Shown piece after piece: positions 47,888 through 54,141 of a DNA stretch of 64,000 bases. Where the stretch lies: the NCBI RefSeq assembly GCF_017358165.1, contig NZ_CP071446.1, positions 248,001 to 312,000 of the forward strand, written 5' to 3'. Under the pieces are notes generated by a model. The model was given only the letters and a program-made list of their open reading frames with translations, was not told the DNA's origin and did no database searches. The position numbers and the translations under genes were made by a program. Each line of letters opens with the position of its first letter. Position 1 is the first letter of the stretch. Source of the stretch: Thermosipho ferrireducens (GTDB taxonomy: Bacteria; Thermotogota; Thermotogae; Thermotogales; Fervidobacteriaceae).

Positions 47888-48652
47888 TTAACCCCCTATT
47901 TTAAATTTAATGTTTTGTCTTTTTATAATTCGAACAATAGATAAAGGAGCTAAATAGCTTGTTTTTGGATTTTCCGATGGATAGTTTTCAAATTCGAGTT
48001 TGTAATTACCAACTTTTGATTCTATTTTGATTATATGTTTGTTTCTTTCTATCAATGGATCTGCCACTATTTTCACTTGCACTTTATTAAAATCTCTTAC
48101 CGCTAATGATAACGTAACAGCAACATTAACGTTTCTGGGGAAAACTTTAATAGCTTCTGTGGAGCTTCCATCAAATACTACTGTTTCATCCTTTACATTC
48201 AACCCTAAACTTTCAGGTCTTTTTTTTGTTATCAACGTAATGTTATATACCTTATCATATATAGCCTCAATTAAATCAAGCCCTCCTATAGCTCCAGTGG
48301 CTATGTAAACTTTACTATTTGAACTTTTCAATTCATTCATGAAAGAAATTCTGAAATTTTCATCTGCAAAAGCTCCTGTACTCAACACTATTAAGTTTTT
48401 ATCCGATTTTAAGATTTCTATACCATATTCACATAACGCCTCTATTGAGGCAACTTCTACAACATAATCAACATTGAGTTGTCTTAATTCTTCTATCTCT
48501 TTGTATTCAATATAAACAGCGTCAAATCTTTCCTGCAGTTTTTTAATCTGGTTAAGATTTTTATCATAAAAATATGCCTTCTCTATTATTCCACGAAGTT
48601 CTTCTAAAATGATACTCGCAGAATTTCCCGCTCCCAGAAAAAATATTCGCAT
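47888..48652 (-). CDS. nadX: L-aspartate dehydrogenase
   Basis: A 254-residue NAD(P)-dependent enzyme that oxidises aspartate to iminoaspartate, replacing NadB, as known from Thermotoga maritima. The Rossmann motif is FLGAGNSASIILEEL (4-18); the SSKVYIATGAIGGLDLIEAI segment (about 105-125) and the VNVAVTLSLAVRDF segment match the family. I start at the ATG at 48652, which has GGAGGGAGATT in front; an upstream 32-codon in-frame extension covers the promoter and is rejected. Confidence 0.93.
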   Translation of the reverse strand: MRIFFLGAGNSASIILEELRGIIEKAYFYDKNLNQIKKLQERFDAVYIEYKEIEELRQLNVDYVVEVASIEALCEYGIEILKSDKNLIVLSTGAFADENFRISFMNELKSSNSKVYIATGAIGGLDLIEAIYDKVYNITLITKKRPESLGLNVKDETVVFDGSSTEAIKVFPRNVNVAVTLSLAVRDFNKVQVKIVADPLIERNKHIIKIESKVGNYKLEFENYPSENPKTSYLAPLSIVRIIKRQNIKFKIGG

Positions 48653-48682
48653 AATCTCCCTCCGCTTTTTAATCTTTACACT

Positions 48683-48711
48683 ATTATACAGCAAATGTAA
48701 AATACAGTCAA
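48683..48711 (-). promoter_or_regulatory. promoter of nadX-nadA-nadC operon
   Basis: On the minus strand TTGACT (48711-48706) and TATAAT (48688-48683) with a 17-base spacer, about 30 bases upstream of the nadX ATG. No clear NAD-repressor palindrome recognised. Confidence 0.88.
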
Positions 48712-48786
48712 TCGAACAGGACAAGGCGCGGAATAAATTAAGTAACAAAAAATTAACTATTTCTTAATTATCTGTGTGCGTTGCCA

Positions 48787-48795
48787 TGTTATAAT
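48787..48795 (+). promoter_or_regulatory. extended -10 promoter of the leader-ABC operon
   Basis: TGTTATAAT, that is TG-N-TATAAT, with TATAAT at 48790-48795. Divergent from the nad promoter. It would start transcription near 48802, placing the leader ORF about 40 bases from the 5' end. Confidence 0.65.
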
Positions 48796-48833
48796 GATTT
48801 CCAAGAATTTCCGAAAAATTTTTTTGAAAAGGA

Positions 48834-48986
48834 GGCGAGGCAGATGTTTAGATTTGGGTTTAGAACACAGGTAAGTGGAATATCTTTACGCTATTGCTCT
48901 GCTTCGCCGGAGGTTAGGTTTGCGAACAATCTGTGATTTAATCGTAAAAAATGCAAGCCGTGGCGAAGCGCCACGGCTTTTTTTTT
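48834..48986 (+). promoter_or_regulatory. transcription attenuator with mutually exclusive 1:2, 2:3 and 3:4 pairings
   Basis: Segment 1, GGCGAGGCAGA (48834-48844), can pair along its full 11 bases (one G-U) with segment 2, TCTGCTTCGCC (48898-48908). Segment 2 (GCTTCGCC part) can instead pair perfectly with segment 3, GGCGAAGC (48962-48969). Segment 3 lies in the terminator hairpin GCCGTGGCG/CGCCACGGC (48957-48965 and 48969-48977), followed by nine T. Segment 1 overlaps the leader ORF ribosome site and segment 2 lies in codons 19-22 of that ORF. A ribosome stalled early in the leader would favour 2:3 (antiterminator, ABC genes on); a free run to the stop codon or no translation favours the terminator. 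Confidence 0.8.
48844..48936 (+). CDS. 30-residue leader peptide of ABC exporter operon
   Basis: An ORF of 30 codons that begins MFRFGFRTQVSGISLRYC and ends FANNL before TGA at 48934-48936. It has a near-perfect AAGGAGG ribosome site 8 bases ahead. The start is Phe- and Arg-rich (F2, R3, F4, F6, R7). Its position inside the four-segment attenuator shows it is read as a sensor. Early Arg-x-Arg-like elements are known to promote drug-dependent ribosome stalling in some resistance leaders, while repeated Phe codons are typical of amino acid sensing; the sequence does not decide between them. Confidence 0.75.
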   Translation: MFRFGFRTQVSGISLRYCSASPEVRFANNL

Positions 48987-49024
48987 AGCCAGAATGAAAC
49001 TTTGAGAACAGAGGGGGTATTAAC

Positions 49025-49813
49025 ATGAAAGCATTAGAAGTTTACAAAGTCAGTAAATATTTTAATAAGGGAAAGAAAAGAAAAGAACTCATTAGAGCAG
49101 TTGACAGCATTAGTTTCGAAGTTTACGAAAAAGAGATATTTGGAATATTAGGTCCAAACGGTTCTGGAAAATCCACGCTTATTAGAATGATTTCAACATT
49201 ATTAATTCCGGATGAGGGAACTATAAAAGTATTTGGATACGATGTAATTAAAGATGCCTTTAAAATTAGAAATATAATAAATCGCGTATCAGTAGAAGCA
49301 AGTTTTTTTAAAAAGCTCTCTGCAAAAGAAAATCTTTTATTTGCAGCTGGATTATATGGGTTAAGTAGAAAAAGGGCATTTAAAAAAGTATTAGAACTAA
49401 GCCAAAAAGTAAATCTACCTCATAATAGATTAAATGAACCTCTGGAAGACTTTTCCAGGGGAATGCAGCAGAAAGTGGCAATTGCCAGGGCGTTTTTAAC
49501 ATCTCCAAAATTGTTGCTTTTGGATGAGCCTACAACAGGTCTGGATCCAAGAGCAAAAAAAGAAGTTCAAGAACTTATAGTAAACGCAAGAAAAGAAGGA
49601 ACTACTATTCTTTTAACAACACATGATATGTTAGAAGCTGAAAAACTCTGTGATAGAGTTGCAATTATCCACAAGGGAAAAATAATTGTTATAGGAACTC
49701 CTGAAGAGTTAAAACGTTCTGTAAACCCACATTCTAAAAACGTTACACTTGAAGATGTTTTCATGTTTTACACCGGTGAGACTTTTGAAGAGGAATTTCA
49801 GGAGGTGAGCTAA
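49025..49813 (+). CDS. ABC-2 type exporter ATP-binding protein
   Basis: A 262-residue ATPase with Walker A GPNGSGKST (about 44-52), signature FSRGMQQKV (about 144-152), Walker B LLLLDEPTTGLD and switch His in TTHDM. The GTPEELKRS ending is typical of DrrA/CcmA-like exporters of drugs, polyketides or lipids. It lies 38 bases beyond the attenuator terminator and is preceded by AGAGGGGG. Its stop codon is one base before the permease gene; the two form one exporter. Confidence 0.93.
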   Translation: MKALEVYKVSKYFNKGKKRKELIRAVDSISFEVYEKEIFGILGPNGSGKSTLIRMISTLLIPDEGTIKVFGYDVIKDAFKIRNIINRVSVEASFFKKLSAKENLLFAAGLYGLSRKRAFKKVLELSQKVNLPHNRLNEPLEDFSRGMQQKVAIARAFLTSPKLLLLDEPTTGLDPRAKKEVQELIVNARKEGTTILLTTHDMLEAEKLCDRVAIIHKGKIIVIGTPEELKRSVNPHSKNVTLEDVFMFYTGETFEEEFQEVS

Positions 49814-49814
49814 T

Positions 49815-50639
49815 ATGGAACTTGTCATAAAAGAACTAAGAGCTTGCTGGGCTTTTATAGAAAGAAATTTCAACCTTATAAAAAGATATTGGAAATGGGA
49901 ACTTGTCTTTTTTGTATATACAATAGCTAACTCAGTGACCATGGGATTTATTGGTAAAGGCATTGAAAGTTTCGGCGGACAAAAAGTAAATATTGATTAT
50001 CTAATATTATACATGCTTTTAGGTTCTATTCTGTGGGGGTATCTTTCCATAATCTTCGCAATAGTAGCGGAAACAGTCGCGTGGGAAAGATGGGAAGAAA
50101 CAATTGAATATACATTTATGGCCCCGGTTTCACGGGTTACTCATCTTTTAAGTGTGTGTATATTTAGTATCTTGTATGGAATTTTGAGAAGCGGGTTAAT
50201 ATTATTTGTAGTTTCATGGTTCTTTGACCTTGATCTGTCAAATGCAAACATCGCATCAGCTGGTATAGTTCTTGTAACCGCGAGCCTTTCTTTCATAGGA
50301 CTTGGAATCGTGGCAGCTGTATTACCGTTGATTTCACCTGAGAAAGGCGTTCATGTGGTGCACATTTTCCAATCTTTACTTCTTATGTTTTCAGGAGTGT
50401 ATTATGAGATAGATGTTCTGCCGACCTGGATGCAGAAAATCGGGCGTTTTTCCCCTGCAACTTATGCTTTAAAGGGAATGAGACAGGCAATTTTAAAAGG
50501 CCAAGAAGTCAAAGAGTTATTACCTCAGCTTTCAGCGCTTGCATGGATGGGATTGATTCTTTTACCATTGGGTATCTTAATTTTTTCAAAGGTTGAAGCA
50601 TACGCTAAAAGAAAAGGACTTTTAAAAAGAAACGGATAA
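49815..50639 (+). CDS. ABC-2 type exporter permease
   Basis: A 274-residue membrane protein with six hydrophobic segments. The ABC-2 signature GVYYEIDVLPTWMQKIGRFSP then ATYALKGMRQAIL (about 190-225) is clear, preceded by a conserved EKGVHVVHIFQSLL helix. Substrate unknown; drug or lipid export is most frequent. The control by a translated leader suggests that an inhibitor of translation or an amino acid signal governs it. Preceded by TCAGGAGGTGAGC. Confidence 0.9.
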   Translation: MELVIKELRACWAFIERNFNLIKRYWKWELVFFVYTIANSVTMGFIGKGIESFGGQKVNIDYLILYMLLGSILWGYLSIIFAIVAETVAWERWEETIEYTFMAPVSRVTHLLSVCIFSILYGILRSGLILFVVSWFFDLDLSNANIASAGIVLVTASLSFIGLGIVAAVLPLISPEKGVHVVHIFQSLLLMFSGVYYEIDVLPTWMQKIGRFSPATYALKGMRQAILKGQEVKELLPQLSALAWMGLILLPLGILIFSKVEAYAKRKGLLKRNG

Positions 50640-50680: not shown

Positions 50681-50761
50681 ATTTAACACACATAACCCTA
50701 ATAACGTAATTTCAAGCAATTTCATTCATCTTGTGATATAAAAATAAATTTGAAGTTTAAT

Positions 50762-50791
50762 TTGTTTATCCCATATAAAAAGTGCTATAAT
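50762..50791 (+). promoter_or_regulatory. promoter of CsgG-like/LPP20 operon
   Basis: TTGTTT (50762-50767) and TATAAT (50786-50791), 18-base spacer; 25 bases from -10 to ATG with AAGGAGGTGA between. Confidence 0.65.
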
Positions 50792-50815
50792 ACTTTCATC
50801 AAGGAGGTGACACTT

Positions 50816-52030
50816 ATGAAAAGATTATTTCTTCTTTTAATATTGTTGTTAAGCCTTACAACAATTTTTAGTGCTGGAAGGGGTATATCAATTTCAGAAA
50901 AAATTGGAATAGTGATACTGCCGGCTAAAGTAAGTGGCGGGTGGAATATAAGTGATGCAGACCATCTTATCTCAATTCTTGAAGAAAAAGCTCTTGAGCT
51001 TCAACGCTTTAAAGTGTTTTCGAGAAATGACATTGAAACGATAATCAAAGAAAGAAATTTAGGTGATCTTGGCATAACAGAAAATGCATTACAAGCCAGT
51101 AAATTAGCTGGAGCAAGATACGCCATTCTCCTTACACTTACAAGTTTATCAGCACAGTACAGCGAAAGCAGTTACGGTTATCTTGGAAGCGCAAGATTAT
51201 CACTTAAACTATACGATTTAAAGAATGGGGAATTGTTAGCCGCGAAAAGTTTTGAAAAAAGTACCTTCTTTGGAGAAGAAACTTACGAACAGGCCATAAA
51301 CGCCGTCATAACCATATTGGCTGATGATATATGGTTAACTTTGAGAGAATTTTTCAAACTTGAAGCTTATGTAATTAAAGTAGAAAATGGAAAGGTGTAT
51401 CTTGGAGGTATTGATCCAAAAATTATTAAAAAAGGATTTATATTCAAAGTAGAAACTGAAGATGGGAACGTTGGTTTTATAGAAATACTCGGATATAACA
51501 AAAGGACCAACGCAGTAATGGGAAAATTCATGTATGGAGCGATGCCACAGGAGTATGATCCTGCGACAGAATACCCAGTTTCACCTTATATAGCAAGTAT
51601 AGGAATAGGCCTATACTCTGGAAAAGTTTCATTAAATATGGTTGGTTGGAGCACTTCACAAAAAATTTACTTGAACACAGGAATAATAATGGCCAATTTC
51701 ACAAACTATATACCAATGCAAATTACTGCTGGTATCAAGCAAAGTCTTTTAAAATTGGGAAGAATCGAAACAAGCGTTGTGGGAGGCGTTCATCTGCTCT
51801 CCTTATATGATATGAGTGAAACATCGACAGAACCTTTCCTTCCAACTTTCGGACTTGCAGGTGGTGTTCATATTTCATACGACTTTGAACCAAAGAGTAA
51901 ACTTTTTGCTGAAGTCTTATATACTATGACGTTTCCTGATTCATTTACTCAATATATTCTAACCTATATTTTTGGAATAGATCAAACAAGTTTTATGCAA
52001 ATAACAGCTGGATATGCTTTTTCTTTTTAA
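50816..52030 (+). CDS. CsgG-like domain protein with predicted outer-membrane beta-barrel
   Basis: A 404-residue protein. Signal peptide MKRLFLLLILLLSLTTIFS with no lipobox. Residues about 25-185 resemble CsgG/FlgT-M (EKIGIVILPAKVSGGWNISD, then ALELQRFKVFSRNDIETIIK and AGARYAILLTL). About 187-240 is a small FlgT-C-like barrel (VENGKVYLGGIDPKIIKKGF). From about 255 to the end, alternating amphipathic strands close with ITAGYAFSF, an aromatic C terminus as in outer-membrane barrels. I infer an envelope-anchored assembly or secretion factor. The start is the ATG at 50816, after AAGGAGGTGA. Co-transcribed with the LPP20 lipoprotein. Confidence 0.8.
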   Translation: MKRLFLLLILLLSLTTIFSAGRGISISEKIGIVILPAKVSGGWNISDADHLISILEEKALELQRFKVFSRNDIETIIKERNLGDLGITENALQASKLAGARYAILLTLTSLSAQYSESSYGYLGSARLSLKLYDLKNGELLAAKSFEKSTFFGEETYEQAINAVITILADDIWLTLREFFKLEAYVIKVENGKVYLGGIDPKIIKKGFIFKVETEDGNVGFIEILGYNKRTNAVMGKFMYGAMPQEYDPATEYPVSPYIASIGIGLYSGKVSLNMVGWSTSQKIYLNTGIIMANFTNYIPMQITAGIKQSLLKLGRIETSVVGGVHLLSLYDMSETSTEPFLPTFGLAGGVHISYDFEPKSKLFAEVLYTMTFPDSFTQYILTYIFGIDQTSFMQITAGYAFSF

Positions 52031-52050
52031 AAGGATAGGGGTGAGTGGTT

Positions 52051-54141
52051 ATGAAAAAAGTTCTTTTTATAATTTCAATCTTTATACTAATAATGTTGCT
52101 TTTTTCATGTGACGTGTTTTTCCAATCATCATCAGATTCTAAAAAAGCAACGCAAATTACTATACCTCCTGGATATTTAGGAGCAATTGGTGAAGGAGTT
52201 TCTGAAAATGAAGGCAAAGCAGAAAATATTGCGCAAAAAGTTGCTCTTCAAAGGCTGTCTGAGCAAATATATGTCGAACTTCAGGCTGAATCCACACTAA
52301 AAGAAGAGTTAACTCAGGTGATTAGTAATGAAAAGTTAAAAGAAACTGCTATAACTAATTATGAAAATATTGTAAAAACAAAAGTAAATATCGAACTTCT
52401 AAACGTAGATTTTAACCTTATAGAAAAGCGCTTTGAAAAAAATAATTACTATGTAAAAGTTCTTGCCCTGTTAGACAAAGATATCGCGCTCAATATTTTT
52501 AACACATATCTTGCCATAAAAACTGGCGAAGCACTGCTTAGAACAAAAATGATTTATTCAGCTTATAACATAATAAATCGCTATGAGAAACTTTTAAGCG
52601 ATAATAAAAATATTCTTCCACCAAAAATGTTCTCTGAACTTACATACATAGTTGCAAAAATTAAAAATGAATGGAACATCATACAACAGGAACTTAAAAA
52701 TTTAGATAAGCTGAATATTGTAGATGAGAAAAGTAGTTTAAAAGCCCTTGAAATACTTGATCGTATTCATGAAACGTCTATTGATATACCAGACGAGATT
52801 ATTAAAAAATACAGGGAAAAGGCAAGAAAATATGTAAAAAATTATAGCCTTAACATTTCCGGCCCTTCAAAAGTAAGTTTAGGCCAGAGAATTGTTCTGG
52901 AAGCTTCGTTAAATCCTCGTATATCAGGAAACTTCAATTTTGTTGTAAAAGCAAATGGGGCAAAATTCCCGGAGTTAGTAACCTTCACAAATGGAAAGAG
53001 TATAATCAGTGGCCTTGTAAATGATACAAACGTAAAAGTTACTATTAGTCTTGGTGGAGTTATACAGGCCACATGGGCACCAGGAACACGTGAAGGACCT
53101 GGAATTTCTGCTGAAGTTTCAAAAGACATTATAAGAATTTCTTCTCAGGGTGTAGCTACCATTGAAAATGAAGACCTGGCCTCTGCGAGGGAAAACGCTA
53201 TAAAATCTGCAATAGTTCAGGCTATTAAAAAAGGAGCGGGAATAGTTTTTTCTGGAAATGAAAATATGTTGTTAAATATTCCGGTAGATGAAACAATAAT
53301 AAACGCATTAATGGGAGTAATAAATTATGAAATAGTCAGTGAAAAGAGAAAAGAAACACTTTACTACATAATATTAAATGTGAATTTCAATAAATCTCTT
53401 TTTTCCTCGGCAATTAATAAAGTAATCGAGAATCAACCCCCAGGATATGCTTTGCTAATGGTAACAGGTGACAACTATGAATATATAAGTTCTTCTATGG
53501 AGAACATTCTTATTGAGAATAACATAAAACTTGTTTCGAAAGAATATTCCAGAAAGATATTAGAACAACAAAAGTCTGAAAACTATGATCCAGAAACTCT
53601 GGCAAAATTAGCACTTCTTACAGCTGCAAAATATATTATAAACGTGAAAGTTCATTACGGTGAAACTTACGTGGAAAGTTATCAATTGTGGTCCATGCGT
53701 TTGTTTACAAACGTTCAGATAATCGACACACGAACTGGAGAAATAATAAAAAGTGAAAATTTCGAAGAAGTTAATTCTGGTGCGACCAAAGAATCTGCTA
53801 TTTCAAAGATAATAAATAGCCAAAAATACATAGATTTTATCAAATCAATAGCTCAACTCCTTAAAACTTCTCCCTCTTCTGAAAAAGCATCTTTTATAAA
53901 GGAATATACCCTGATATTTTACGTAGAACGCCCTGTGTATATACTGGTGCTAAAAGATTATCTTTCCAGACATTTTGATAAAGTCCAGCTTATGTTAAAA
54001 GAAACTGAAAAAGGGACATTCAAAATTGAAACATCCATCAGTTTAAATGAAATAGTATCTATTATAAAAAGTTTCCCTAATTTAAAAATAACATTAAAAG
54101 CTCATAAGGAACAACAATTAATATTCGAGGTAACAAAATAA
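52051..54141 (+). CDS. LPP20/FlgT-like lipoprotein
   Basis: A 696-residue lipoprotein. The signal ends in a lipobox LLFSC with Cys20. Residues about 45-150 are an LPP20 domain (GEGVSENEGKAENIAQKVAL). The middle (about 270-345) looks like a beta-sandwich. About 350-450 repeats the LPP20/FlgT-N theme (ISSQGVATIENEDLASAREN), and 465-610 a FlgT-M/CsgG-like module (LALLTAAKYIINVKVHYGET). FlgT stabilises the flagellar basal body in Vibrio; LPP20 is an outer-membrane lipoprotein in Helicobacter. Here the pair is not in a flagellar cluster. The ATG at 52051 is chosen after GGGGTGAG over an upstream GTG. Confidence 0.78.
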   Translation: MKKVLFIISIFILIMLLFSCDVFFQSSSDSKKATQITIPPGYLGAIGEGVSENEGKAENIAQKVALQRLSEQIYVELQAESTLKEELTQVISNEKLKETAITNYENIVKTKVNIELLNVDFNLIEKRFEKNNYYVKVLALLDKDIALNIFNTYLAIKTGEALLRTKMIYSAYNIINRYEKLLSDNKNILPPKMFSELTYIVAKIKNEWNIIQQELKNLDKLNIVDEKSSLKALEILDRIHETSIDIPDEIIKKYREKARKYVKNYSLNISGPSKVSLGQRIVLEASLNPRISGNFNFVVKANGAKFPELVTFTNGKSIISGLVNDTNVKVTISLGGVIQATWAPGTREGPGISAEVSKDIIRISSQGVATIENEDLASARENAIKSAIVQAIKKGAGIVFSGNENMLLNIPVDETIINALMGVINYEIVSEKRKETLYYIILNVNFNKSLFSSAINKVIENQPPGYALLMVTGDNYEYISSSMENILIENNIKLVSKEYSRKILEQQKSENYDPETLAKLALLTAAKYIINVKVHYGETYVESYQLWSMRLFTNVQIIDTRTGEIIKSENFEEVNSGATKESAISKIINSQKYIDFIKSIAQLLKTSPSSEKASFIKEYTLIFYVERPVYILVLKDYLSRHFDKVQLMLKETEKGTFKIETSISLNEIVSIIKSFPNLKITLKAHKEQQLIFEVTK

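Follow-up and report, generated by a model that had tools for sequence, protein, structure and literature searches.

The DNA analysed here (the window) is a stretch of 64,000 nucleotides, positions 248001-312000 of the single-contig genome of Thermosipho ferrireducens (1,982,543 bases). Its plus strand encodes an exporter made of a DrrA-like ABC transporter ATPase (49025..49813; 264.8 bits with TIGR01188, below the cut-off of 312.45) and an ABC-2 membrane protein, the permease (49815..50639; PF01061). In the family search the pair is closest to DrrA-type models, below the cut-offs of TIGR01188 and TIGR01247. A CsgG-like protein (426 aa) and then a 698-aa protein with a weak FlgT_N match are encoded 3' of the exporter (50750-54141). 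The aspartate dehydrogenase NadX is encoded on the minus strand (47888-48748). The true start probably lies downstream of the listed one, TTG 48748: the NadX family matches cover the protein only from residue 33 on, close to an ATG at about 48652 that has a GGAGG, and the minus strand carries a promoter-like TTGACT-17-TATAAT at 48711-48683.

No close ortholog of the exporter (49025-50639) was found in the 19 genomes of the same family that were searched, and orthologs are present in other families of the Thermotogota. The nearest ATPase by identity (68%) belongs to a genome of another family, G047, in which the leader described below likewise starts with MFRxxFR. The exporter and its putative switch may therefore have been transferred together.

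Leader anatomy and predicted folding

An extended -10 promoter element (TGTTATAAT, 48787..48795) with a poor -35 precedes a ribosome-binding site (AAAAGGAGG, 48827..48835), which ends 8 nt 5' of the ATG of a leader ORF of 30 codons (MFRFGFRTQVSGISLRYCSASPEVRFANNL, ATG 48844 to TGA 48936). Segment 1 (GGCGAGGCAGA, 48834..48844) overlaps the leader Shine-Dalgarno sequence (SD) and start; it is the 5' arm of an anti-antiterminator and pairs with segment 2 (TCTGCTTCGCC, 48898..48908) in a helix of 11 bp, including one G.U. The alternative partner of segment 2 is segment 3 (GGCGAAGC, 48962..48969), which is the 3' part of an antiterminator: nucleotides 48901-48908 (GCTTCGCC) form 8 perfect base pairs with it, or 10 with G.U ends. 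Segment 3 lies within the 5' arm and loop of an intrinsic terminator hairpin, 3:4 (48955..48979), which starts 18 nt past the leader stop, between the leader ORF and the exporter genes. This hairpin has 11 bp (arms 48955-48965 and 48969-48979), a loop AAG (48966-48968) and a tail of nine T (48978..48986), and is predicted to be strong. All these features are on the plus strand, and direct reading of the sequence confirmed the places that the sequence-only reading had given for the leader ORF, the segments and the terminator. All the anatomical features of a ribosome-mediated transcription attenuator are present; in Mesotoga the two helices adjoin (see below). Most leaders, that of the window (48909-48930) included, also carry an AGGTAT/AGGTTT-like element about 8-15 nt past segment 2, which may act as a pause site for the polymerase or code for Arg-Tyr/Phe.

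When segment 1 and the terminator were held fixed and the intervening stretch was shuffled with its dinucleotides kept, only 2 of 20,000 shuffles reached the score of the exclusive 1:2/2:3 pairing, which is thus unlikely to arise by chance. The fold of the entire region is 2.45 sd better than that of shuffles. Run over the two strands of the window, a scanner for the full architecture matched this site alone; in related loci (139 kb, both strands = 278 kb) all its matches were attenuators of this exporter. The search of the genome with an RNA model gave a single match, this locus. Known Rfam cis-regulatory families (riboswitch, T-box and others) gave no match at the gathering score and nothing convincing at a loose E-value on the locus; Leu_leader (RF00512) scored 23.7, compared to a gathering score of 50. 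A tblastn search of plasmids with the leader peptide returned chance hits only.

Folding with forced states, which the sequence-only reading had proposed, gave the states that it predicted and is consistent with a switch. In the free RNA of the window leader at 65 C, the probability of 1:2 is 0.97 and that of 3:4 is 0.89. If the leader start is covered, the probability of 2:3 at 65 C is 0.99 up to a polymerase position of about 48974-48976. With all of segment 4 transcribed, 3:4 outweighs 2:3 at equilibrium, so that antitermination must be kinetic. A ribosome placed over segment 2 or over the stop leaves the terminator in place (3:4 at 0.90 with segment 2 covered), which corresponds to the OFF state. 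Of 19 leaders folded in this way, most show the same trend.

Leaders of orthologous and other pumps

The search for orthologs of the permease in a phylum set of 103 genomes gave 25 genomes, in 23 of which the upstream DNA is readable. A leader ORF and a terminator stand upstream of the exporter in 21 of these 23, the present one included (20 were measured by the pairing script or by inspection; the leader of G068 was assigned by RNA-model match and inspection). The leader is absent upstream of the exporter ortholog in two genomes, G028 and G030, which we take to be Pseudothermotoga-like; the label Mesotoga used below is likewise our assumption. The 20 measured leaders all have an open frame and a strong SD (AGGAGG or AGGGGG) at similar spacing. 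The leader ORFs are 23-35 codons long and stand at a homologous position. By a strict pattern, most orthologous leaders have a TATAAT-like element, mostly TGnTATAAT, 39-54 nt 5' of their start codon.

As segments 1-3 are divergent, a MAFFT alignment over all leaders is poor, and the script therefore compared the helices within one lineage at a time. Overlapping 1:2 and 2:3 helices are found in the 11 non-Mesotoga leaders, from six families, each with p 0.001-0.024 against shuffles. The letters of the three segments are unrelated between lineages and complementary inside each lineage: they read TGCAAGGTG/CACCTTGCA/TGCAAGGT in G024 and GGTGAATACG/CGTGTTCACC/GTGAACATG in G046, and the pairings in G047 are GTGGACAGAGTG/TGCTCTGTCCAC with TGTCCACGGCC/GGCCGTGGATA. 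By inspection, compensatory changes in 2:3 are seen between G024 and G022 (C-G to U-A, A-U to G-C) and between G046 and G067 (C-G to U-A). The layout is kept in these 11 leaders: relative to the leader start, segment 1 occupies about -12..+4; segment 2 begins 42-63 nt past the start codon, the leader stop comes about 20-35 nt past segment 2, and the terminator begins 13-26 nt past the stop. The sequence-only reading had hinged on homologous exporters having the leader ORF and compensatory changes in segments 1-3, and it thus stands after this comparison.

The eight Mesotoga leaders have both helices, but 1:2 and 2:3 mostly adjoin and do not overlap (by inspection, segments 2 and 3, TGCCACG/CGTGGCG, adjoin the 1:2 helix GCCTTCTTCC/GGAAGGAGGC), and the gapless-overlap test on them is not significant (p 0.14-0.30). 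In a MAG of the Caldiserica (L040), a leader with a short 2:3 can be recognised by eye, but the script detected no 1:2.

In the Kosmotogaceae the attenuator stands up to 440 nt 5' of the exporter, because short ORFs stand in between. Such trains of short ORFs lie between the leader terminator and the ATPase gene in L071, L063, L068, L070, L066, L058 and L076, and are also seen at L124 1740-2072 and in L122 (minus strand, about 260-800). They consist of two to four ORFs of 30-45 aa, mostly basic, each with a ribosome-binding site, and occur in two families, before two unrelated pump types; there is none in the window. The short basic ORFs have no Pfam match above the cut-off.

A covariance model built from the Kosmotogaceae leaders was used to find further leaders. 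With it, leaders of this layout were identified upstream of an MFS pump (several Mesotoga) and of BmrCD-like ABC pumps (another family). The second Mesotoga leader, ML[DE]xIQA[YH]RR[AVT]IL, precedes an MFS transporter (PF07690); such leaders are at L111 (about 1526-1672), L115, L117, L118, L119, L123 (minus strand) and L125. In G093 the leader precedes BmrCD-like ABC_membrane pumps, and in G101 it precedes, by inspection, an apparently broken BmrCD-like pump. The pairing is significant only in G101 (p 0.006); the MFS leaders give p 0.065 or worse, and that of G093 is not significant. Two loci of this kind are L124 1374-5591, from a Thermotogota genome, in which a leader resembling an attenuator is followed by three short ORFs and by a pair of ABC exporters (576 + 594 aa) like BmrC and BmrD, and L122, minus strand 1-1000, with a well-paired attenuator (p 0.006), short ORFs and an apparently broken ABC exporter gene. 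Many weak matches of the model (e.g., L099, L101, L106) resemble plain terminators and were rejected.

Since these leaders precede pumps of multidrug type, they point to drugs as the signal, as leads and not as proof. It is possible, and we suggest it tentatively, that stall attenuators with leaders of free sequence control several unrelated drug pumps (ABC-2, MFS, BmrCD-like) throughout the Thermotogota, many of them separated from the pump by a train of short basic ORFs.

The signal probably sensed by the leader ribosome

We consider it highly probable that the locus is a ribosome-mediated transcription attenuator in which early arrest of the ribosome, most likely caused by a drug, switches on the exporter. 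During normal growth the leader would be translated and released fast, or its start would be free of ribosomes; segment 1 would then pair with segment 2, segment 3 would be left free, the hairpin 3:4 would form, and RNA polymerase would stop at 48978-48986. A ribosome held in about the first four or five codons would cover segment 1, leaving segment 2 free as segment 3 is transcribed, so that 2:3 would form while segment 4 is still incomplete, and transcription would go on into the exporter. We infer this position from the known sizes of ribosome footprints: the ribosome should cover segment 1 and leave segment 2 accessible. The natural cause of the arrest would most likely be a ribosome-targeting antibiotic, and the exporter would most likely remove such compounds.

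The leader peptides bear on what is sensed. Among the Mesotoga leaders the differences at codon positions 1, 2 and 3 (240/183/235) are about equal; this test by codon position therefore shows no purifying selection on the peptide and no third-position bias. What is conserved in the leaders is the SD, the start, the open frame, the stop and the RNA pairing. No conserved codon run for one amino acid was found in the orthologous leaders, and their N-termini vary (MKEIIYLSQ, MTIRTRVPA, MLRSFGTSR, MKTTMNIRL). An Arg/Lys-x-Arg/Lys motif, which resembles motifs of macrolide arrest, occurs in the first nine residues of 11 of 21 leaders, compared to 5.3 expected; as the leaders are not independent of one another and that of the window has no such motif, the enrichment is only suggestive. 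As judged from the sequences, these data speak against both an amino-acid sensor and a single strict arrest sequence. They agree best with a general sensor that responds when a ribosome is arrested within its first few codons, a drug being the simplest cause, and it is probably in this way that these bacteria notice ribosome-blocking drugs.

Instead of a drug, the same switch could sense that initiation or elongation is slowed in general (in the cold, in the stringent response or by a defect of ribosome assembly), the pump exporting another stress metabolite or a lipid. The substrates of ABC-2 pumps are diverse, and a sensor with a free peptide sequence does not have to be specific for drugs. 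Moreover, vmlR of Bacillus subtilis is induced by ribosome assembly defects too (PMC9226507). The leaders of the same layout before MFS and BmrCD-like pumps speak against this explanation, although their statistics are weak, and we regard it as unlikely but worth keeping in mind.

An amino-acid attenuator, in which scarcity of charged tRNA (Arg or Phe) would stall the leader ribosome and open transcription, is very unlikely. The window leader starts with MFRFGFR, and Arg or Lys is present in the first six codons of most orthologous leaders. However, the codons are free and show no run for a single amino acid, the target is an exporter, neither a biosynthesis nor an uptake gene, and the Leu_leader score is below the gathering score. 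The Phe/Arg-rich start noted by the sequence-only reading is thus real in the window but not conserved in the orthologs, which makes stalling at Phe or Arg codons as such improbable; of the two effectors that this reading left open, the data therefore favour a ribosome-targeting drug over an amino acid.

Even less probable is an arrest by the nascent peptide near the C-terminus of the leader, at Arg-Tyr/Phe shortly before the stop. In most leaders AGG, AGA or GGG followed by TAT or TTT does occur at the distance from segment 2 given above, but a ribosome there would cover segment 2, which is the OFF state in the folding; the element has no codon-level conservation, and it may be a pause site of the polymerase. 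Finally, a fixed, unregulated terminator or readthrough dampener would agree with the strength of the hairpin, but the leader pairings would then be incidental, which the shuffle test and the co-variation of segments 1, 2 and 3 between lineages at constant geometry make the least credible reading of all.

Related systems and biological meaning

The drug-responsive attenuator proposed here resembles the bmrB leader of bmrCD in Bacillus subtilis, for which leader-dependent attenuation was shown experimentally: a leader ORF, three alternative stem-loops and an intrinsic terminator precede an ABC drug-pump operon, the system is induced by 50S inhibitors, and translation of the leader is required (PMC4191407). 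bmrB has 53 codons and its terminator is inside the ORF, whereas the window leader has 30 codons and its terminator is past the stop; BmrCD is an ABC_membrane-type heterodimer and the target in the window is an ABC-2 pump. The two leaders belong to different phyla and no sequence relation is seen between them.

The leader of vmlR from the same organism also combines an anti-antiterminator around the uORF, an antiterminator and a terminator. Experiments proved that arrest at the first codons opens transcription, as we propose for the window leader, and the uORF tolerates different peptides (PMC9226507); the free leader sequence observed here thus fits a sensor of a very early halt. vmlR differs by a uORF of 3 codons, a proven NusG pause, an ABC-F target and an extra hairpin that hides the SD. 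Several Thermotogota leaders have a basic-x-basic motif near codons 3-6, like the R-x-R leaders of tlrB/hflX type (RYR motif, PMC9226507; uORFC-6-1 motif, PMC8632094); the window leader does not, and the targets differ. The attenuators of amino-acid operons (Leu_leader, RF00512) rely on the same ribosome-mediated choice between 1:2/3:4 and 2:3, but the window leader has no regulatory codon run and scores below the Rfam gathering threshold.

The mechanism is thus already known from bmrB and vmlR, while the Thermotogota setting, the ABC-2 target and the conservation throughout the phylum appear to be undescribed: no case in Thermotogota was found in open-access papers, the search having covered neither subscription papers nor preprints.

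If the proposed reading is true, the Firmicutes are not alone in controlling inducible drug efflux through ribosome-stall attenuation. Such control would be ancient and general in a phylum whose members are mostly thermophilic anaerobes, from habitats where exposure to drugs is little studied. It would also mean that the RNA logic can persist with a leader peptide that is almost unconstrained in sequence. The conserved switch would provide ready-made reporters for finding ribosome inhibitors in such habitats.
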